Source: Pseudomonadota bacterium (GTDB lineage Bacteria; Pseudomonadota; Alphaproteobacteria; Sphingomonadales; Sphingomonadaceae). From it: DNA of 64,000 nucleotides. Of this stretch, positions 23,568-46,372 are shown one piece after another. The notes beneath the pieces were generated by a model. The model saw only the letters and a program-made list of their open reading frames with translations, made no database searches and had not been told where the DNA came from. Position numbers and translations under genes: made by a program. The stretch lies in NCBI GenBank assembly GCA_039818985.1, contig JBCBSU010000001.1, forward strand, positions 1,576,367 through 1,640,366, read 5' to 3'. Each line of letters opens with the position of its first letter. The stretch's first letter is position 1.

Positions 23568-24167
23568 ATGCTGTTGTCCTATACCCCCATCGAATATAAA
23601 TCCGCCGATCCGCAAGCCTGCCCTGCCACCGTCGAGCAGCTGATAAATGGCGTCATCGCGCGCGAGGGCGGTTATAGCAATCATCCCGCCGATCGCGGCG
23701 GTGAGACAAATTGGGGCATCACCCATAAAGTGGCCCGCCAGCATGGCTATCATGGGCCGATGCGCGACATGCCGCGCGAGCGCGCGGTGGAAATCTACAC
23801 GCGAATCTACTGGTTGCGCCCGGGATTCGACGGGCTTGCCGCAGATGCTCCCACAGTGGCTGCGGAACTATTCGATATCGGCGTCAATATGGGACCAGGC
23901 ATCGCCATTGGTTTTCTGCAACGTGCGCTCAACGCGCTCAATCGCGGCGAGAAGGACTATGCCGACATCGCCATTGATCGCGTTATCGGTGAACAGACGG
24001 TCGGCGCACTGCACCGCTTCATCCGCAGGCGCGGTCAGGCTGGGGAATCAGTGCTGCTGCGTGCCATCGATTCGCTCCAGGGCGCGCGATACATCCAGCT
24101 TGCCGAATCACGTCCGGCCAATGAGGCGTTTCTCTATGGCTGGCTGGCGCACCGTACCCGTCCGTGA
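23568..24167 (+). CDS. Phage-type endolysin, glycoside hydrolase family 108
   Basis: Peptidoglycan-degrading N-acetylmuramidase of 199 residues. The catalytic segment is VIAREGGYSNHPADRGGETNWGIT with the likely catalytic Glu33 in EGGY. The following helices (RERAVEIYTRIYWLRPGFDGL, AAELFDIGVNMGPGIAIGFLQRALN) are typical, and a C-terminal peptidoglycan-binding-type region begins about residue 115. No signal peptide is present, so release needs the holin encoded 51 bases downstream. GGAG eight bases before ATG 23568 supports the start. No other phage genes are nearby, which fits the detached lysis module of a gene transfer agent better than a prophage. Confidence 0.87.
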   Translation: MLLSYTPIEYKSADPQACPATVEQLINGVIAREGGYSNHPADRGGETNWGITHKVARQHGYHGPMRDMPRERAVEIYTRIYWLRPGFDGLAADAPTVAAELFDIGVNMGPGIAIGFLQRALNALNRGEKDYADIAIDRVIGEQTVGALHRFIRRRGQAGESVLLRAIDSLQGARYIQLAESRPANEAFLYGWLAHRTRP

Positions 24168-24218
24168 CAGCGGTGCGCATGAGCGCCGCAAAATATTCAG
24201 CAAGCAAGAGGTCAAATC

Positions 24219-24629
24219 ATGTCTCTCATTGATACGATTATTTCACCAGTCGCCAAGCTGATCGACAAGATTATCCCCGATCCGCAGGCGCGCGACAAGG
24301 CCAAGTTGGAACTGCTCAAACTGCAGGGCAGCCAGGAGCTGAAAGAGGTGGAAACGCGAATCGCCGCGATCATGGCAGAGGCGCAATCCGCCGATCCATG
24401 GACCAGCCGGGCACGTCCAAGCTTCCTTTATGTCATGTATGTGATGATATTGTGGGCGATTCCCATGGGGTTGATCGCCAGCGTCCGTCCCGAAACCGCC
24501 CACGCCATCGCCAACGGCATGAATGCCTACCTTTCCGGCATTCCCGAGCCCTTATATGCGCTGTTTGGCACCGGATATCTGGGCTATACCGTGGCCCGGC
24601 AATGGGGCAAAAATCGCGGTGTCCAGTGA
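24219..24629 (+). CDS. Holin of the 3-TM gene-transfer-agent release type
   Basis: The 136-residue protein has an amphipathic N-terminal region (SPVAKLIDKIIPDPQARDKAKLELLKLQGSQELKEVETRIAAIMAEAQSADPWTSRARPSFLYVMYVMILWAIPMG) and then two to three membrane segments ending at LYALFGTGYLGYTVARQWGK. DPWTSRARP just before the first helix is characteristic of the holin family used for gene-transfer-agent release. It would form pores that let the upstream endolysin reach the wall. AGAGG lies at a good distance from ATG 24219. Confidence 0.83.
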   Translation: MSLIDTIISPVAKLIDKIIPDPQARDKAKLELLKLQGSQELKEVETRIAAIMAEAQSADPWTSRARPSFLYVMYVMILWAIPMGLIASVRPETAHAIANGMNAYLSGIPEPLYALFGTGYLGYTVARQWGKNRGVQ

Positions 24630-24680: not shown

Positions 24681-24755
24681 TGCATGACGAGGGAGGCTGA
24701 CCGTAAAAAGCCCACTCTTGTTTACAAGTTTACATAAACCTGAAGGGGAATGAAG

Positions 24756-25043
24756 ATGAAGAATAGCAACCTGGGTAAGATGCTCGCCATCGCTGGCGGC
24801 CTCGCTCTCGCAACGGCTTGTACGCCGGAAGAAGCTGCAGAAGCTGGCTGCTGCGCCGCTGAAGCTGTAGGCTGTGCCGCTTGTGGCGCTGCATGTGCCG
24901 CTGCTTGCGGTGCTGAAGCTGTGGGTTGTGCTGCTTGCGCAGCTGCTGACGCTGTCACCGGTGAATGCGGTGCCTGTGGTGCATGCGGCGCCTGTGGTGC
25001 TTGCGGCGCCTGTGGTGCTGAAGGCGAATGCGCCGCTGAATAA
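24756..25043 (+). CDS. Small lipoprotein with cysteine at every third residue
   Basis: Unrecognised 95-residue protein. Residues 1-22 form a lipoprotein-like signal (MLAIAGGLALATAC, Cys22). The mature part contains 15 more cysteines in an Ala/Gly background with Glu and Asp: 32, 33, 40, 43, 47, 51, 58, 61, then 71, 74, 77, 80, 83, 86 and 92. EAVGCAAC occurs twice (36-43 and 54-61). The five Gly-Ala-Cys units at 72-86 use mixed synonymous codons, so the protein repeat is being kept rather than arising from DNA slippage. ATG 24756 is chosen over 24750 because AAGGGG ends 7 bases before it. It shares the three-residue cysteine period with 45502-45786. A periplasmic metal- or thiol-buffering role is possible but unproven. 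Confidence 0.75.
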   Translation: MKNSNLGKMLAIAGGLALATACTPEEAAEAGCCAAEAVGCAACGAACAAACGAEAVGCAACAAADAVTGECGACGACGACGACGACGAEGECAAE

Positions 25044-25164: not shown

Positions 25165-25773
25165 ATGAGCGAAGCAGTCGACCGTCTTTTTGCGTTAACC
25201 GGGCAGATCGTCAAGGAAGGCGTCTCCCTTATCCCGCGGGTTGTCCCGCCGGATGTGCCCTTTGTGCAATATCAGCACTATCCCAAGGGCGATTGCATCG
25301 CGCCGGGCAACAAGTCGCGATGGTTCTATCATGCACATAAGCCGGAAGAGCGCGAGGAAGGCGAGCACGGGCATTTTCACATGTTCCTGCCGCTCGACAT
25401 GTTCAAAGGTGTCGAGCCGCTGATCAAGCCGGAGCACAAGAAAAACAAAAAAGGCAAATTTCCGGCCAAGGTGGTGCATTTCGCCGCGCTTGGTTTCAAC
25501 ACCGATGGCATGCCGCTCTACTGGTTCACCACCAACTACTGGGTGACCTTCGAATATATGATGCCCGCTGATGCCATCGCCCAGCGGCTGAAGAACTTCA
25601 GCATGAAGGACGCCCCGGGCGACCCGCTGGTCAATGACTGGCTGACGGCTGCGGTCGAGGTATTCCACGATCCGATCATCGACCTGCTCGAGAAACGCGA
25701 CAAGGTTCTCGCCGAAGGCAATTATATGGACAAGTCGGCCGAAATCCCCTCACGCATGGATTTCGATCTTTAG
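25165..25773 (+). CDS. Uncharacterised protein with HGHFH motif
   Basis: The 202-residue soluble protein has no signal peptide. Striking parts are SRWFYHAHKPEEREEGEHGHFHMFLPLDMF (several closely spaced His and acidic residues, suggestive of a metal site), VVHFAALGFNTDGMPLYWFTTNYWVTFEYMMPADAIAQRL and DPLVNDWLTAAVEVFHDPIIDLLEKRDKVL. It resembles a family of alphaproteobacterial proteins of unknown function, possibly the one called DUF6969, but I cannot confirm that. It begins 121 bases after the cysteine-rich lipoprotein on the same strand and could share its transcript. Confidence 0.7.
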   Translation: MSEAVDRLFALTGQIVKEGVSLIPRVVPPDVPFVQYQHYPKGDCIAPGNKSRWFYHAHKPEEREEGEHGHFHMFLPLDMFKGVEPLIKPEHKKNKKGKFPAKVVHFAALGFNTDGMPLYWFTTNYWVTFEYMMPADAIAQRLKNFSMKDAPGDPLVNDWLTAAVEVFHDPIIDLLEKRDKVLAEGNYMDKSAEIPSRMDFDL

Positions 25774-40368: not shown

Positions 40369-40434
40369 AAGCGCACGCTTTCCTCATTTTGCCTTCCCCC
40401 TTTGTCCGCGTTAAGCTGCACATGGGGGAATGTG

Positions 40435-43400
40435 ATGCTGAACATCGTCCGGCTTTGGATATTGTGTCTCGCTCTGTGTGTCGCCGCACCGGCTGCGGCG
40501 CAATGGCAGCGTCCCGGGGATGACGATCCGGAAATCGCAGCGCAGCGGGCAAAGGTGTTCAGTACATCGTCAGCCGAACGAGCAATCGAGTCCGAAAAAC
40601 TCATCGCGCTGATGGCCGCGCGCTTCGGTGAAGACAGTCCGGAATATGCCGGCGAGTTGCAACTGCATGCCGTCAATCTTATCTCAGCCCAGCGCAGCCC
40701 CGAAGCACAGCGCATATTGCAAGACCTCATTCCCCGTCTGATCGCAATGCACGGTGCGGATTCGTCCGAGGTCGCCTTTGCCCGACGCGACTATTCAATA
40801 GCCTTGCGGATAAACGGCTTTACCGCTGAAGCGGAGCCGGTAGAGCGCGCCTATGTCGATAAGCTGGCGGATATCGCCTATGGCTGCGGCCGGATCGAAC
40901 AAACGAACATCGCTGGCATTGAGGGCAGCATCATTCGCGGCTGCTCGCACGACGAAAGGAGCCTGGGCACCGCGCTGATCGTCCATGGCAACATCCTGCA
41001 TGACCTAGGCAGAACCGATGAGGCCGTTGCGAGGTTCGAGGCGGTCATCGCCCGCTTCACCCCGCGCTGGGAAGGATGCGAGAGCGAAATATGGGGCACC
41101 AAATGCAGCCGCGCCGAGGAAAATCGCCGCGCATTCATGGCGGAATATGCCCGCTTTCTGCAGAATGTGAAACGCAATGATGACGCGATGGCCATATTGC
41201 GCGGCAATCTGATGCCAAGGCTGAAGGCGTTGGCGACGTGCGAGGCAAAATCCTGCGAGGCAGACTATGATCTGCTTCGCGACTTCCGCAACTATCGCGA
41301 TTTCCTGGTCAAAATCGACATGTTCAGCGCGTTGCAGGACATGGACAATCGCTGGTTGTCCATTCTGGCTAATGCCCCTGCCTATGCGCCCGACCCGACC
41401 GGTGACACCAGCTATTTTGATACACGCTACAGTGAGATCATGGATGCCATTCTTGATGATTATGCCAAGCGTGCCGTGGGAAGTGGCGATATCGAGCAGG
41501 CACTGGCCCTGTTGAAACCGCTGGGGCAGGAGAATCTGGTCACTGATCGCATGGCAAGCGCCAATCGCGACACCAGGATAGCCAGACTCGATACAGCCAT
41601 TAAACAGGCTGCCGGGATAGGTGATGATGATCTGCGTGAGCGACTTCTTGACGAGAAGGCAGCGCTGATCGCCCAGCAATCAGGTGAACAATCGCATGAG
41701 CTTGTCAGATTCTGGCGCGACACAGCATTTCAATGGCGGCTTGCCGATAAATATGCCCGCGCCGAAAATGCGTATCGCAAAGCCCTTGCGGTATCGCGTG
41801 CAGGCTTTGGCGACGGCCATTTTGAGGTCTGGCACAGCCTCAACCGCTACGCCGATATGCTCATCCAGATCGGGAGAACAGATGATGCCATTGCCATGAT
41901 GCGTGACATATTGGCCCATCCCGATAACGATATCATGCCAATCTATAATGACCCGATGCAGTCACGCTTGCTGTCTGACGGATTTATTGACCCTTACGCC
42001 ACGCTCAACGAGCTGAAAGCCACCTTTGCCACATTGCTGCTGGACAATGGCACAGAGGCCGATCTGGCACTTGAAGCGGCGCGTCATGCAGCGACCGGGG
42101 TGCGCGCCTATCGTGATTCCCTTGGTTTTTCGCGCAGTGACGAGAAACGCCTGAGCTATGAAACCAGCGATCCATGGGCTTATGGCGGCGTACCCAGATA
42201 TCGTGATTATTTCATCTTGCTCGCTGATGCGCTGTGGACGGTGAATCAGGATAATAGGGCAAATAGCGAGGCAGCCTTTATCGCGTTGCAGGAAGCAATG
42301 ATTGGTACAACCAGTCGCGCCGTTGCCAAAGCCGCAGCAGAACGCGCTGCAGAACGCGGTGGCGTTGATGAACTCCTGAATGAACGTGCGCTGATAGACA
42401 CCGAGATCGACGAACTTGAAAGCCGCTATTATGGGCGCAGCACAGGACTGACCCGAGAGGGACGGCGCGGCCGCGATCTGCGTAATTATATCCTTCGCAA
42501 GCGCGCAGAACTGGGCATTGAAGATGCCCCAACGCTGGCACAGGGCGATCTCGCCAGTGACCGACAAGCGCGTGAAGCGATCTATAACGCAATCCGCCGC
42601 AAGAATTTTCGCCGCAGCGAAATCAACCAGGCGATTGCCGTCGCCGCGCCCGGCTATTTCGAGCTGGTGCGCCCCAGGCCGCTTGATCTGGCCAGCGCGC
42701 AAGCGATGCTGGGGGCGGATGAAGCCTTCCTGCTGGTGGTGCCTTCCGCACGGGGTATTCACACGCTGTTGCTGACTGGCGAAAGCGTGCAATGGCAAAG
42801 ATCCGCACTAAGTGAAGCAGAGCTAAACGCGCATGTTCGCCGTCTGCTCTGGGATCTTGGTGCCAATGTACAGGTGAGCGAGGAGGAAAATGCCCGCTGG
42901 CTCGGTGAAGGCGAAGGCCCCTACCCCTTTGATCGCGCCACCGCGCATCTGCTTTATCGCGAACTTGTGGCGCCCTTCGCCCGGCAGATAGCAGGAAAGC
43001 GCCATCTCTTTGTTGCCGCAACCGGGGCGCTGTCATCGTTACCCTTTGGCGTTCTCGTTACCGAGCAGCCGGTGGGAGCCGATGGTGATGCCGATATCCT
43101 GCGCGCAACGCCATGGCTTGCCGACCGGATTGCGTTGGTCCAGCTGCCATCTTTCCAGTCACTGCAATTGCTACGCGCCTTAGAGCAGGACAGCGACGTC
43201 GGCGACGAAGCCATGATGCTGGGTTTTGGTGACCCGGTACTTGACGGGGAGCCTGCAAATCGCGGCACCAGCGCGCGCCAGCGCCTGACTCGCGCCGGTG
43301 GCGCCACACCGATGAGTATATGGCGTAATAATGGCGGCACTTCAGCCAGTCTGCGGCTGGCCGATCCGGAGAAGCTGCGCAAACTGGCACGTCTGCCAGG

Positions 43401-43998
43401 CACTAAACGCGAATTGCGCGCCATGGAACGGGTTTTCGGCATCGGTCGCACCCGGCTTTTTCTCGCCGAGAAAGCCACCGAGACCAACATAAAGAACACC
43501 GATCTCGGCAATCTGTCGGTGCTGTTCCTTGCCACCCATGGCCTCGTCGCCGGCGAGATGGAAGGCGAAATTGCCGAGCCTGGCTTGCTCTTTACCCCGC
43601 CTCAAATAGCCACACAGGCCGATGACGGGCTGTTAACCGCCTCCGAAGTGACAGCCTTGCCGCTGGACGTGCAATGGGTGATCCTGTCGGCCTGCAACAC
43701 CGCCGCGGGTGACGGCAGCGAGGGAGCAGAAGGTCTTTCGGGACTGGCCCGATCGTTCTTCTATGCCGGAGCGGAAAGCCTGCTCGCCTCGCACTGGCCG
43801 GTACGCGACGATGTCGCTGCGGTGATGACGGTAAGGCTGTTCGAATTGCAGCGCGATAACCCCGGCTGGTCACGCGCCGAGGCGCTGCAGGCGGCGATGG
43901 CCGCGGTGCGCAATGACCGCCGCGCCGATGACGATCTGGCAAGCTGGTCGCATCCCAGCGCCTGGGCACCATTTTCCTATATCGGTGATATCCGATGA
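40435..43998 (+). CDS. Large secreted TPR-CHAT protein
   Basis: The 1187-residue protein starts at ATG 40435 (GGGGGA upstream) with a Sec signal peptide (LCLALCVAAPAAAQ). A long helical region of TPR-like repeats follows (for example FRWRLADKYARAENAYRKALAVSRAGFGDGHFEVWHSLNRYADMLIQIGRTDDAIAMM). The last 330 residues are a CHAT domain: FLATHG (His1035) and ILSACNTAAGDGSEGAEGLSGLARSFFYAGAESLLASHWPVRD (Cys1087), the caspase-like dyad. CHAT domains are peptidases or peptidase-like. Export of such a protein out of the cytoplasm is unlike defence-system caspases. No obvious partner gene lies nearby. Confidence 0.85.
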   Translation: MLNIVRLWILCLALCVAAPAAAQWQRPGDDDPEIAAQRAKVFSTSSAERAIESEKLIALMAARFGEDSPEYAGELQLHAVNLISAQRSPEAQRILQDLIPRLIAMHGADSSEVAFARRDYSIALRINGFTAEAEPVERAYVDKLADIAYGCGRIEQTNIAGIEGSIIRGCSHDERSLGTALIVHGNILHDLGRTDEAVARFEAVIARFTPRWEGCESEIWGTKCSRAEENRRAFMAEYARFLQNVKRNDDAMAILRGNLMPRLKALATCEAKSCEADYDLLRDFRNYRDFLVKIDMFSALQDMDNRWLSILANAPAYAPDPTGDTSYFDTRYSEIMDAILDDYAKRAVGSGDIEQALALLKPLGQENLVTDRMASANRDTRIARLDTAIKQAAGIGDDDLRERLLDEKAALIAQQSGEQSHELVRFWRDTAFQWRLADKYARAENAYRKALAVSRAGFGDGHFEVWHSLNRYADMLIQIGRTDDAIAMMRDILAHPDNDIMPIYNDPMQSRLLSDGFIDPYATLNELKATFATLLLDNGTEADLALEAARHAATGVRAYRDSLGFSRSDEKRLSYETSDPWAYGGVPRYRDYFILLADALWTVNQDNRANSEAAFIALQEAMIGTTSRAVAKAAAERAAERGGVDELLNERALIDTEIDELESRYYGRSTGLTREGRRGRDLRNYILRKRAELGIEDAPTLAQGDLASDRQAREAIYNAIRRKNFRRSEINQAIAVAAPGYFELVRPRPLDLASAQAMLGADEAFLLVVPSARGIHTLLLTGESVQWQRSALSEAELNAHVRRLLWDLGANVQVSEEENARWLGEGEGPYPFDRATAHLLYRELVAPFARQIAGKRHLFVAATGALSSLPFGVLVTEQPVGADGDADILRATPWLADRIALVQLPSFQSLQLLRALEQDSDVGDEAMMLGFGDPVLDGEPANRGTSARQRLTRAGGATPMSIWRNNGGTSASLRLADPEKLRKLARLPGTKRELRAMERVFGIGRTRLFLAEKATETNIKNTDLGNLSVLFLATHGLVAGEMEGEIAEPGLLFTPPQIATQADDGLLTASEVTALPLDVQWVILSACNTAAGDGSEGAEGLSGLARSFFYAGAESLLASHWPVRDDVAAVMTVRLFELQRDNPGWSRAEALQAAMAAVRNDRRADDDLASWSHPSAWAPFSYIGDIR

Positions 43999-44092
43999 CA
44001 CCGCCGCGATGCCCTTTTCGGCAAGACTGGCGAAACCGGCGACACTGCATTATGTAATGCGGGCCGTTTCAGCCAATAGGAGAACTCCCCCG

Positions 44093-44719
44093 ATGAAAAA
44101 AGCTCTTGTCTTCGCTTCCCTTCTCGTCGCCACACCGCTTATCGCCCAGTCGGCACCACAGGTCCCCGGCCAGGTCGATGCAAACCGCGTCACCGCCGGC
44201 ACCTATGCCACCGATCCCGGCCATACGCTGATCGGCTGGCGCGTCAGCCATTTCGGTTTCAACGACTATTTCGGCATTTTCGGTGACGCCACCGGAACGC
44301 TCACCATCGACCCCGCCAATCTCGGCGCCGCCAGGGTCGATATCACTATTCCGGTCAGCAAGGTGACCACCGCCAGTGCCGGCCTGACTGAACATCTGCT
44401 GCGCCCCGGCAAGGATGGCGGCCCGGCTGACTTTTTCGGCCCCGAGCCGGCGGATGCGCGCTTCGTTTCGACCGCCGTGGTCGTAGACGGCATGACTGCC
44501 AAGATCACCGGCGATCTCACGCTCAACGGCGTTACCAAGCCGGTCACCCTGGATAGTGAATTCACCGGCGCCGGCACCAATCCGTTCAACCGAAAGGAAA
44601 CGGTCGGCTTTGAGGCGACCACAACGATCAAACGCAGCGATTTCAACGTGAATTACGGTATTCCGTTTGTCAGCGATGAGGTCGAACTGGATATCTCGGT
44701 CGCATTTGAGAAGCAGTAA
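44093..44719 (+). CDS. YceI family periplasmic protein
   Basis: The 208-residue protein has a signal peptide (MKKALVFASLLVATPLIAQS) and a YceI lipocalin-like beta barrel: ATDPGHTLIGWRVSHFGFNDYFGIFGDATGTLTID, TGDLTLNGVTKPVTLDSEF, GFEATTTIKRSDFNVNYGIPFVSDEVELDISVAFEK. The family binds isoprenoid or polyprenyl-like lipids. AGGAG upstream fixes ATG 44093. A strong terminator follows. Confidence 0.92.
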   Translation: MKKALVFASLLVATPLIAQSAPQVPGQVDANRVTAGTYATDPGHTLIGWRVSHFGFNDYFGIFGDATGTLTIDPANLGAARVDITIPVSKVTTASAGLTEHLLRPGKDGGPADFFGPEPADARFVSTAVVVDGMTAKITGDLTLNGVTKPVTLDSEFTGAGTNPFNRKETVGFEATTTIKRSDFNVNYGIPFVSDEVELDISVAFEKQ

Positions 44720-44737
44720 GCCACCAGTTCTCAGCAT

Positions 44738-44776
44738 AAAAAAGGGGCGCTGCCTTGTGGCAAGCGCCCCTTTTTT
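44738..44776. terminator. Bidirectional intrinsic terminator
   Basis: An A6 run, then GGGGCGCT (44744-44751) paired with AGCGCCCC (44763-44770), extended by GCC/GGC past a one-base bulge, with a 4-nt loop, then T7 (44771-44777). This is a classic intrinsic terminator in both directions between yceI and the convergent YHS gene. Confidence 0.9.
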
Positions 44777-44793
44777 TAGAGAATTAGCGTTGC

Positions 44794-45333
44794 TTATGCT
44801 TTGTAGTGCTCGCTGGCATCGTGCTGGGGATAGTTTACGTCGCCCTGCTCGATGAATTTCTCTTTTTCCGGAGCCCAGTTGCTCTTCACTTCTTCGTTGA
44901 AGTTCAAATAGAGCTTGCCATCGACAATCTCGTAGACATTCGGATCGCCGGGTGCGAGCGCATCCTTTGCACCAATGGCCCAAGCGCAATAGCCACCATA
45001 AGCAGGTGCGAATTTGGCAGGATCACCGGCAAATTCCTTGGCATTTTCTTCGCTGGCAAAACGATAATCATAGCCCTGATAGACCACAACATGGTCTTCG
45101 CTGCCTTCGACCGGAACACCGTCACCCTGAAAATAGGACACCGCGTCATAGCCCGACAGCGCCAGCGTTTCGCCAGGCTCTGCGGTATAGACCGGACCGG
45201 CCGGCTGACCGCCCAGATCGGCGACAATGCTGCTGGAGGCAGCGGCAATGTCATCGGCCGGGGCATCGGTAGCACCACCACAGGCGGCAAGGGCAAGGCT
45301 GGCTACAGCCGCGAACAAAATCGATTTCTTCAT
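44794..45333 (-). CDS. YHS-domain lipoprotein
   Basis: The 179-residue protein begins with a lipoprotein signal (ILFAAVASLALAAC, Cys near 18; GGAG nine bases before ATG 45333). After a short linker comes a YHS-type domain: TLALSGYDAVSYFQGDGVPVEGSEDHVVVYQGYDYRFASEENAKEFAGDPAKFAPAYGGYCAWAIGAKDALAPGDPNVYEIVDGKLYLNFNEEVKSNWAPEKEKFIEQGDVNYP. The single Cys of YGGYCAWA is the conserved family residue. Such proteins are often labelled YHS-domain (seleno)proteins, and metal binding is suspected. It is the third gene of a minus-strand cluster with the cysteine-periodic protein and a second YHS protein, and has its own upstream region with a promoter-like motif. Confidence 0.85.
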   Translation of the reverse strand: MKKSILFAAVASLALAACGGATDAPADDIAAASSSIVADLGGQPAGPVYTAEPGETLALSGYDAVSYFQGDGVPVEGSEDHVVVYQGYDYRFASEENAKEFAGDPAKFAPAYGGYCAWAIGAKDALAPGDPNVYEIVDGKLYLNFNEEVKSNWAPEKEKFIEQGDVNYPQHDASEHYKA

Positions 45334-45369
45334 GATAATAAACTCCTTGATTGCGTTATCATATGGCTG

Positions 45370-45395
45370 TTCGCGCATCGTTGCGCAGGCGTTAC
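45370..45395 (-). promoter_or_regulatory. ECF sigma-like promoter motif upstream of the YHS lipoprotein
   Basis: On the minus strand GTAACG (45395-45390) is followed after exactly 16 bases by CGAA (45373-45370). This differs at one base from GTAACC-N16-CGAA, the motif described for SigF of Caulobacter, an ECF factor induced by copper and other metals. The distance from CGAA to the ATG is 36 bases. The match is visual only and no sigF-like gene is in the window. Confidence 0.3.
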
Positions 45396-45448
45396 ACTTG
45401 CATCAGAAAAAATATTCTGTCTTCCCAAAACAATCCTTCGAAATACGC

Positions 45449-45484
45449 AAAGGGCCTTCGCCCGTCAGGGAGCGAAGGCCCTTT
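45449..45484 (-). terminator. Terminator of the cysteine-periodic gene
   Basis: A 13-bp inverted repeat: AAAGGGCCTTCGC (45449-45461) and GCGAAGGCCCTTT (45472-45484) with a 10-nt loop, 17 bases past the stop codon. It separates this gene from the downstream YHS lipoprotein, so the latter needs its own promoter or readthrough. The T-run on the minus strand is interrupted. Confidence 0.75.
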
Positions 45485-45501
45485 TACCGATACCGGACAG
45501 G

Positions 45502-45786
45502 TTACTTGGACGCCGAGCAGGCACCACAGGCTGAGCAAGCGCCGCAGGCTGAACACGCACCACAGGCTGAGCAGGCATCATCCGAGGCACTGCACGCGCC
45601 ACAGGCACCACAATCGGCAGAGCAGGCGGAACAAGCAGCGCAGCCGCTGCACGCGCTGCAGGCCGAGCAGCCGGCACAAGCATTCTGATGCGCGGGGGTT
45701 TCAAACGCGGCTTGCGCCGGTGCGGCGGCAATCGTCATTCCGCCGGCAACGGTCATCATCGCGGCGACAGTTTTCATCATGGACAT
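45502..45786 (-). CDS. Secreted protein with strict three-residue cysteine repeat
   Basis: Unrecognised 94-residue protein. Residues 1-27 form a Sec signal (MMTVAGGMTIAAAPAQA). The mature part contains 17 cysteines: 37 to 55 at every third residue (seven), 59, 62, 65, then 72 to 90 at every third residue (seven). The spacers are only Ser, Ala, Gly and a few Asp (units such as CSACGA). Codons vary, so the protein pattern is under selection. A three-residue period would put all thiols on one face of an extended or polyglycine-II-like helix, or let many metal ions or disulfides be held. GGAG six bases upstream fixes ATG 45786. It lies between two YHS-domain genes and resembles 24756-25043. Metal buffering is a guess. 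Confidence 0.78.
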   Translation of the reverse strand: MSMMKTVAAMMTVAGGMTIAAAPAQAAFETPAHQNACAGCSACSACSGCAACSACSADCGACGACSASDDACSACGACSACGACSACGACSASK

Positions 45787-45892
45787 GGTTTTCTCCAGTT
45801 CAGGGACAGGGATGGTATTAAGGGAAAAGCGGTGCCGGAGCCGAGAATGCGGCCCAGGAAGATGCAACCTGCCCCGGCACCTATCGGTGGTT

Positions 45893-46372
45893 TCAGCCAC
45901 CGAATTTCGCATTGTCAGGAATGGACGGCCATTGTGCATCCGCCTTGGCGATAAAGCCGGGGACGTCCTTCAGCCAGGTCTGCTGCACATTCTTGTTGAA
46001 ATTGAGATACAGCTTGCCGTCGACAACTTTGTACAGCAGCGGATCACCCGGGGCGAGCGAGCCGCGCGACATGGCCCAGGCACAATGGCCGCCATATTGC
46101 GGCGCAAAGGCGGTCGGGTTCTGTTTGAACTTCGTGGCATTGGCTGCCGAGGCGAAGAAATAGTTGGCGCCTTTATAAGACACTTTGAATTTGTCCGAGC
46201 CGCGCACCGGCTGTCCATTGCCCTCAAAATAGGACACGACATCATAGCCACTGACGGCGGTATTGCCTTCCAGGCCGGTAAAGGTCGGACCGGCAATGGC
46301 AGCGCTGGTCAATGCAGCGCCGGTGGTGGTCGCCGCCAGAACCAGGGCGAGCGAAGTCATTAAAGTCTTCAT
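45893..46372 (-). CDS. Periplasmic YHS-domain protein
   Basis: The 159-residue protein has a Sec signal peptide (LMTSLALVLAATTTGAALTSAAIA) and one YHS-type domain: GLEGNTAVSGYDVVSYFEGNGQPVRGSDKFKVSYKGANYFFASAANATKFKQNPTAFAPQYGGHCAWAMSRGSLAPGDPLLYKVVDGKLYLNFNKNVQQTWLKDVPGFIAKADAQWP. It has the same conserved Cys (YGGHCAWA) as the YHS lipoprotein at 44794-45333; the two are clear paralogues. AGGA precedes ATG 46372. It is the first gene of the cluster, with the cysteine-periodic gene 106 bases downstream. Confidence 0.87.
   Translation of the reverse strand: MKTLMTSLALVLAATTTGAALTSAAIAGPTFTGLEGNTAVSGYDVVSYFEGNGQPVRGSDKFKVSYKGANYFFASAANATKFKQNPTAFAPQYGGHCAWAMSRGSLAPGDPLLYKVVDGKLYLNFNKNVQQTWLKDVPGFIAKADAQWPSIPDNAKFGG

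Follow-up and report, generated by a model that had tools for sequence, protein, structure and literature searches.

The locus described here raises the question of what a small exported protein with cysteine (Cys) at every third residue does between two YHS-domain proteins. It lies in a 64,000-nucleotide stretch of a Sphingomonadaceae genome (assembly GCA_039818985.1, contig JBCBSU010000001.1, positions 1,576,367 to 1,640,366), which was analysed whole and is called the window below. A first-pass annotation of the window had read three minus-strand genes as coding for an exported YHS protein, a Cys-repeat protein and a YHS lipoprotein, and had proposed that the three together buffer thiols or metals in the envelope. 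The reading of the genes is borne out by their coordinates (Table 1) and by matches to the NCBIfam family NF041384. As to function, we lean slightly towards the view that the window carries a two-armed envelope system for metal stress, bufferin-like but without the enzyme MNIO, in which a DUF6969 protein is the candidate cytosolic maturase. More generally, the combination of evenly spaced Cys proteins, DUF6969 and YHS proteins suggests an undescribed form of extracytoplasmic metal or thiol stress handling.

The 94-residue protein does contain the 17 Cys first reported for it. Successive Cys are separated by gaps of 3 (six times), 4, 3, 3, 7 and 3 (six times), giving two runs of seven at an exact three-residue period plus one run of three. 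Fourteen gaps of three compare with a maximum of eight when the mature part was shuffled 20,000 times, and no shuffle matched the observed pattern. Codons for Cys, Ala, Gly and Ser are synonymously mixed (for Cys, TGC 10 and TGT 7), and the repeat is thus maintained at the protein level. The protein has a signal sequence of typical kind; this assignment, like all those of export and lipid anchoring in this study, was made by eye from the signal sequence or lipobox. None of the Pfam or NCBIfam models matched it at E values up to 1, and DUF2282, the domain of the bufferin Buf1, is accordingly absent from it.

Both YHS proteins are members of NF041384 ('YHS domain-containing (seleno)protein'), the exported one with 148.5 bits and the lipoprotein, scored on the longer open reading frame 44794-45378, with 130.5 bits against a cut-off of 70. 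They also pass the Pfam YHS cut-off of 30.3 bits, at 40.2 and 30.6 bits respectively. One Cys is invariant across 51 aligned YHS proteins, and the passages of PMC13188914 and PMC9312934 drawn on here describe family members with selenocysteine, which points to a redox-active role for the YHS Cys. A structural model of the YHS protein finds its best match in the Protein Data Bank in chain 9d2f_A (Z 6.9, root-mean-square deviation (rmsd) 2.4, 59 aligned residues), which is also matched by sequence, but neither the fold nor the sequence match to this chain gives a function. The cluster probably comprises two transcription units, as a strong hairpin follows the Cys-repeat gene and the YHS lipoprotein is therefore probably transcribed separately. 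A consensus scan for terminators listed neither this hairpin nor the one following the lipoprotein gene, and the yield of consensus scans for terminators and sigma-70 promoters did not rise above that of shuffled sequence.

Conserved co-occurrence of Cys-repeat and YHS genes had been set beforehand as a test of the proposed association. A scan of named genomes with YHS homologues matched 594 stretches, 572 of them relatives; only the best 80 were kept, amounting to 78 loci, so that these lean toward close relatives (loci and genomes of our samples carry L and G numbers). The genomes in this and all following counts are related, and the counts are of non-independent events. In 24 of the 78 loci a small exported Cys-repeat gene lies 3' of the gene for the exported YHS protein and in the same orientation, and the full order of YHS, Cys-repeat and YHS lipoprotein gene recurs in nine (L044-L050, L053 and L065, L050 being from Parasphingorhabdus marina DSM 22363), as well as in a genome of the same genus (G002, locus L003). 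In two further genomes, G069 and G232, the YHS lipoprotein gene is followed by a gene fusing Cys repeat and YHS domain, and then by a Cys-repeat gene. The predicted fusion proteins are a direct physical link between the two modules. With its recurring adjacency and the fusions, the association withstands the test set for it. Erythrobacter-type genomes have an altered repeat unit, such as NPCAA or CAASA, and in six of the 78 loci (L052, L057, L058, L061, L068 and L093) a DUF6969 gene follows. One contig bearing the cluster in its Sphingomonadaceae form (L046) is labelled as a metagenome-assembled genome of an uncultured Sulfitobacter and is possibly misbinned.

The link to DUF6969 is present in the window itself. 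Within its own genome the 94-residue protein has a single other match, a gene about 20 kb away coding for a Cys-repeat lipoprotein of 97 residues, and the DUF6969 gene that follows it (Pfam PF22308) is the only copy in the genome and codes for a protein without a signal peptide, as judged by eye. The first-pass interpretation is supported in part: the YHS-Cys link stands, but the Cys-repeat/DUF6969 pair was missed, as was the probable division of the three minus-strand genes between two transcripts. With an alignment (A1) as query, matches were found in 18 of 396 genomes of the order and 8 of 385 of the class, 25 distinct genomes in all, of which 23 were carried forward. G537 (order set) and G872 (class set) were dropped as spurious, and later inspection of their loci found no Cys-repeat export gene; the same holds for the loci of six genomes with weak BLAST matches (G026, G034, G182, G251, G258 and G279; E values of 2e-4 to 1e-3) that were not carried forward, whereas inspection confirmed such a gene in L023, L027 and L028. 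DUF6969 is encoded in each of the 23 genomes retained for a Cys-repeat match, even where it does not adjoin that match, against background rates of 30 of 249 genomes for the family and 11 of 299 for the phylum.

The converse search gives a similar picture. The family search yielded 31 DUF6969 matches in 30 genomes, G121 having two, and one match is without a locus. An exported Cys-repeat gene with at least five Cys lies directly upstream in 28 of the 30 loci, 27 of which were found by script and one (L181) read individually; in the remaining two, L172 and L187, the upstream gene shares the signal sequence and has three Cys and one Cys, respectively. Within the phylum sample, a Cys-repeat gene lies within about 1.5 kb of DUF6969 in 8 of 11 cases, though three of these repeats (G1119, G1198 and G1156) hold only four Cys. 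Two phylum genes (G589 and G604) have no Cys-repeat gene within about 5 kb, and one more lies at a contig end. In G757 and G643, where Cys-repeat matches occur elsewhere, none was found within about 4 kb of DUF6969. The DUF6969 link is a more general association than that with YHS.

What might the DUF6969 protein do? Among 58 distinct sequences, with pairwise identity down to 22%, twelve positions are conserved in at least 90%: H38, D43, H56, H58, E67, H68, H70, H72, H105, N124, R178 and D179. Judging from the predicted strands, the side chains of H68, H70 and H72 would lie on one face of a sheet, and the conserved residues look like a metal or active site while being proof of neither. An AlphaFold2 model, built from only seven sequences, is of good quality, with a predicted local distance difference test score (pLDDT) of 85.8 and a predicted template modelling score (pTM) of 0.86. 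The DUF6969 alignment matched no Protein Data Bank sequence at E values up to 1, and Foldseek found no fold there matching the seven-sequence model at an E value of 0.001 or better. The best VIA-align match, to a chain of the LolA superfamily (Z 3.5, rmsd 5.2, 83 aligned residues), neither proves nor excludes a known fold. Tentatively, and with slightly less than even confidence, we propose that DUF6969 represents a novel type of maturation enzyme, cytosolic and dependent on metal, which modifies stretches of dense Cys repeats in exported proteins. Such stretches may stand alone, be lipid-anchored, or be joined to a YHS, cytochrome P460 or cytochrome c domain. The modified thiol proteins that result would make up a class of their own beside that of MNIO and bufferins, and in Sphingomonadales would largely be under metal-stress control of the sigma-F type.

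One rival explanation is that nothing is modified. Metallothioneins are small proteins with a very high Cys content, and the Cys-repeat proteins could be exported counterparts whose plain thiols bind metal, with DUF6969 acting as a regulator, chaperone or thiol protectant. Simple chelation predicts what is seen in the repeats, namely that the units vary widely (CxxC, NPCAA, EGCCAA, CAACGAA) while Cys density is kept, and the lack of a match between DUF6969 and a known enzyme fold fits as well. We nevertheless regard this explanation as unlikely, since the very tight association with DUF6969 and the invariant His-rich core of the latter suggest specific chemistry on the protein or its Cys. The Cys-repeat proteins share high Cys content with metallothioneins but differ in being exported or lipid-anchored, in their near-perfect three-residue period and in having a DUF6969 partner.

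Evidence on regulation comes from promoter-like sites. In Caulobacter, according to the passages of PMC3511200 drawn on here, the sigma-F site is GTAACC-N16-CGAA, and most of the regulon, which responds to chromium and cadmium, is made up of two bufferin-type operons and a YedY system; those of PMC8224329 add a response to copper and the copper sensitivity of a sigF mutant. We scored sites from 0 to 10 against this consensus and treat them as putative promoters. The two YHS genes of the window hold two of the four sites of 9/10 in the whole 64 kb. A motif one base off the Caulobacter site in its core, TGAAACC-N16-CGAA[AG]C, has 11 matches (9 distinct places) in 1.36 Mb of locus DNA, all before YHS genes; in the 78 named loci, 8 were observed against 0.05 expected. 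Among exported YHS genes that have a Cys partner, 22 of 23 are preceded by a site of at least 9/10, compared with 2 of 20 controls and 2.9% of random windows. This comparison covers 23 of the 24 Cys-partner loci (L062 being left out), with gene starts placed by eye in L046, L058, L065, L069 and L108; the sole miss, at 7/10, is L060, where the site was sought before the first gene, a YHS lipoprotein. The controls, chosen by hand among the 54 loci that lack a Cys partner, come mostly from outside Sphingomonadales, and because nine Sphingomonadales loci without such a partner (L066, L070-L073 and L076-L079) carry exact sites, the control set overstates the tie to the Cys gene.

Sites also occur before the other genes considered here. 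YHS-lipoprotein genes have 9 or 10 of 10 in 10 of 21 cases, and exact sites precede 11 of 28 Cys-DUF6969 operons (the 30 family loci minus L181 and the window's own); an alignment of regions upstream of Cys-DUF6969 operons gave no usable common motif. Over all loci there are 36 distinct exact sites, of which 20 lie before YHS genes, 12 before Cys-repeat/DUF6969 genes, one before an NrsF gene and three elsewhere; 33 sites fall into the first three classes, and 3.2 exact sites are expected over all classes, a figure obtained from base shuffles of all loci with duplicates included, whereas the observed sites are distinct. In the genome under study, an extracytoplasmic function (ECF) sigma factor gene and nrsF, which has an exact site before it, share a single cluster with a complete bufferin operon made up of two DUF2282 genes and those for MNIO, DUF2063 and DoxX. 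The proposal of envelope thiol or metal buffering thereby gains indirect support, from the sigma-F-like sites before the YHS genes and many Cys-repeat/DUF6969 operons.

Table 1. Genes, hairpins and promoter-like sites of the window, with positions counted from its first letter
Feature	Position	Strand	Remarks
Exported YHS protein, NF041384 family	45893..46372	-	first gene of YHS-Cys transcript
Cys-repeat protein, exported	45502..45786	-	94 residues, 17 Cys
YHS lipoprotein	44794..45333	-	lipobox LAAC, by eye; probably own transcript
Terminator-like hairpin 3' of Cys-repeat gene	45436..45490	-	-29.1 kcal/mol, z -5.0
Terminator-like hairpin and T run 3' of YHS lipoprotein gene	44730..44785	-	-29.3 kcal/mol, z -5.2
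Sigma-F-like site GAAACC-N16-CGAA	46456..46481	-	9/10; about 110 bp before exported YHS start; conserved upstream of relatives' YHS genes
Sigma-F-like site GTAACG-N16-CGAA	45370..45395	-	9/10; about 62 bp before YHS lipoprotein start
Second Cys-repeat protein, lipoprotein by eye	24750..25043	+	97 residues, 16 Cys; lipobox ATAC
DUF6969 protein (PF22308)	25165..25773	+	181.7 bits, gathering cut-off 27
TPR/CHAT-domain protein	40402..43998	+	1198 residues; adjoins YHS-Cys cluster
YceI-like protein	43913..44719	+	adjoins YHS-Cys cluster

In the two-armed system that we favour as the simplest reading, one arm would comprise two transcripts, one for the exported YHS and Cys-repeat proteins and one for the YHS lipoprotein, each preceded by a sigma-F-like site; the other arm would be the Cys-repeat lipoprotein with DUF6969. 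Stress from copper or a similar soft metal would act through a system of the sigma-F/NrsF type and lead to export of the thiol-dense proteins, which would bind metal in the periplasm or at the membrane. Before export, cytosolic DUF6969, with its conserved His/Asp/Glu core, may act on the Cys-repeat precursors by modification or by thiol protection. The YHS proteins, with their one invariant Cys, replaced by selenocysteine in some relatives, could serve the Cys-repeat protein as an extracytoplasmic partner in redox reactions or metal transfer.

Several observations weigh against this arrangement. The partners of DUF6969 in L187 and L172 are nearly devoid of Cys, and DUF6969 has no confident match to a solved structure. 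Exact sites before YHS genes without a Cys gene (the nine loci given above and L111) mean that the site goes with YHS generally and is not a marker of the Cys gene. Seventeen of the 28 Cys-DUF6969 operons reach at most 7/10; no sigma-F site was found before the window's own such operon (best 7/10) or at the start of the genome's bufferin operon (best 6/10). Finally, the links to cytochromes, rhodanese and sulfur transport, which we turn to now, also fit a redox or sulfur role.

Elsewhere in the phylum, Cys repeats occur as segments of larger proteins. Beside DUF6969, a Cys repeat is fused to cytochrome P460 in L193 (above the Pfam cut-off) and L156 (below it), and to a SoxA/TsdA-type cytochrome c in L158; Cys-repeat proteins in L191 and L192 have a C-terminus similar to that of the P460 fusions, with a CYECH motif and no Pfam match. 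A rhodanese lies beside DUF6969 in L155, L161 and L162, together with sulfur transport proteins in the latter two. Because of these cytochrome and rhodanese links, a function in redox or in sulfur or nitrogen detoxification stays a real rival: the Cys repeats would be thiol or persulfide relays for YHS, cytochrome P460 and cytochrome c, and metal would act via oxidative damage only. The selenocysteine of some YHS relatives, as described in the passages of PMC13188914 drawn on here, could be taken in the same sense. We hold this rival to be improbable all the same, as the sigma-F-like sites indicate a metal regulon, and as Caulobacter sigma-F is induced by copper in both media used, one of which shows little oxidative stress response (PMC8224329, in the passages drawn on). 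Moreover, cytochrome c fusions occur among bufferins too (PMC12452194, likewise).

Are the Cys-repeat proteins then simply bufferins? The first-pass annotation had seen no adjacent MNIO and had set the locus apart from standard bufferin operons, and we agree: neither MNIO nor DUF2063 nor DoxX lies beside either Cys-repeat gene, their neighbours being YHS, YceI-like, leuA-like and DUF6969 genes, and the sole MNIO of the genome belongs to the complete bufferin operon, which lies 909 kb away on this contig. As judged by the absence of DUF2282, MNIO and DUF2063 from the loci, the Cys-repeat proteins are not bufferins by membership. That they are nonetheless bufferin-like substrates of this MNIO in trans is very improbable, for although the genome does encode one MNIO in a bufferin operon and precursors away from MNIO genes are known (PMC12452194, in the passages drawn on), the 94-residue protein matches neither DUF2282 nor another model, DUF6969 is present in all 33 genomes with Cys-repeat and/or DUF6969 genes (ten of them chosen for having DUF6969), and MNIO is matched in 18 of these and not in the other 15, on which ground it is rejected as the general modifying enzyme.

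The envelope metal-stress system favoured here does share with bufferins (Buf1, with DUF2282, and Buf2; MNIO, DUF2063 and DoxX) small exported Cys-containing proteins, a putative promoter of the sigma-F type, variants that are lipoproteins or cytochrome fusions and, if DUF6969 is one, a dedicated cytosolic partner. It differs in its dense Cys repeats, in its DUF6969 and YHS partners and in having no DUF2282, adjacent MNIO or DUF2063. Periodic Cys are also found in CefA (NF038108, 'Cys-every-fifth RiPP peptide'), at a period of five rather than three. An Erythrobacter-type relative in L058 passes this model with 34.2 bits against a cut-off of 30, whereas neither Cys-repeat protein of the window matches it, and we reject CefA membership for both. 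Among the 299 phylum genomes, NF038108 is matched in 13 at an E value of 0.001 or better and in one above the cut-off. Compared with other NF041384 proteins, the YHS pair of the window is set apart by the Cys-repeat partner gene, fused to YHS in two genomes. Neither YHS nor DUF6969 appears in the main text of a paper on the MNIO landscape (PMC12452194). Our literature searches, beyond whose reach lay most subscription journals, found no paper on DUF6969, none joining cytochrome P460 and cysteine-rich, none for the name 'Cys-every-fifth' or CefA RiPP except an unrelated fungal one and, among the matches listed, no relevant link of SigF, YHS and Sphingo-; the YHS domain occurs together with copper and periplasm in two papers, one of them PMC10783030.

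These associations place three uncharacterised families – Cys-repeat exported proteins, DUF6969 and the YHS (seleno)proteins – in a single likely regulon, with a testable role for each. If DUF6969 modifies the Cys repeats, bacteria would possess a second means, independent of MNIO, of producing modified thiol proteins against metal stress. This would also offer a possible reason why Cys repeats are attached to cytochrome P460 and cytochrome c in other members of the phylum.

Some neighbourhoods have features of their own. Upstream of the Cys-DUF6969 operon of the window, at 23568-24629 on the plus strand, are a glycosyl hydrolase 108/peptidoglycan-binding gene and a GTA-holin gene, and by sequence similar holin-like genes precede the operon in L168, L171, L172, L175, L180, L182 and L183. 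The single-Cys partner of DUF6969 in L187 (1078-1389), which keeps the signal sequence usual for such genes and is preceded by an exact sigma-F site, may have lost its repeat. In the genome's bufferin operon (L200, 8840-12187 and 12437-13849), one DUF2282 protein has 244 residues with two DUF2282 stretches. Lastly, one region (L157, 5878-7387) codes for an NPCAA-repeat protein, an FGE-sulfatase protein and DUF6969, a curious parallel to the fusions of Buf1, cytochrome c and FGE-sulfatase that are reported in the passages of PMC12452194 drawn on here.

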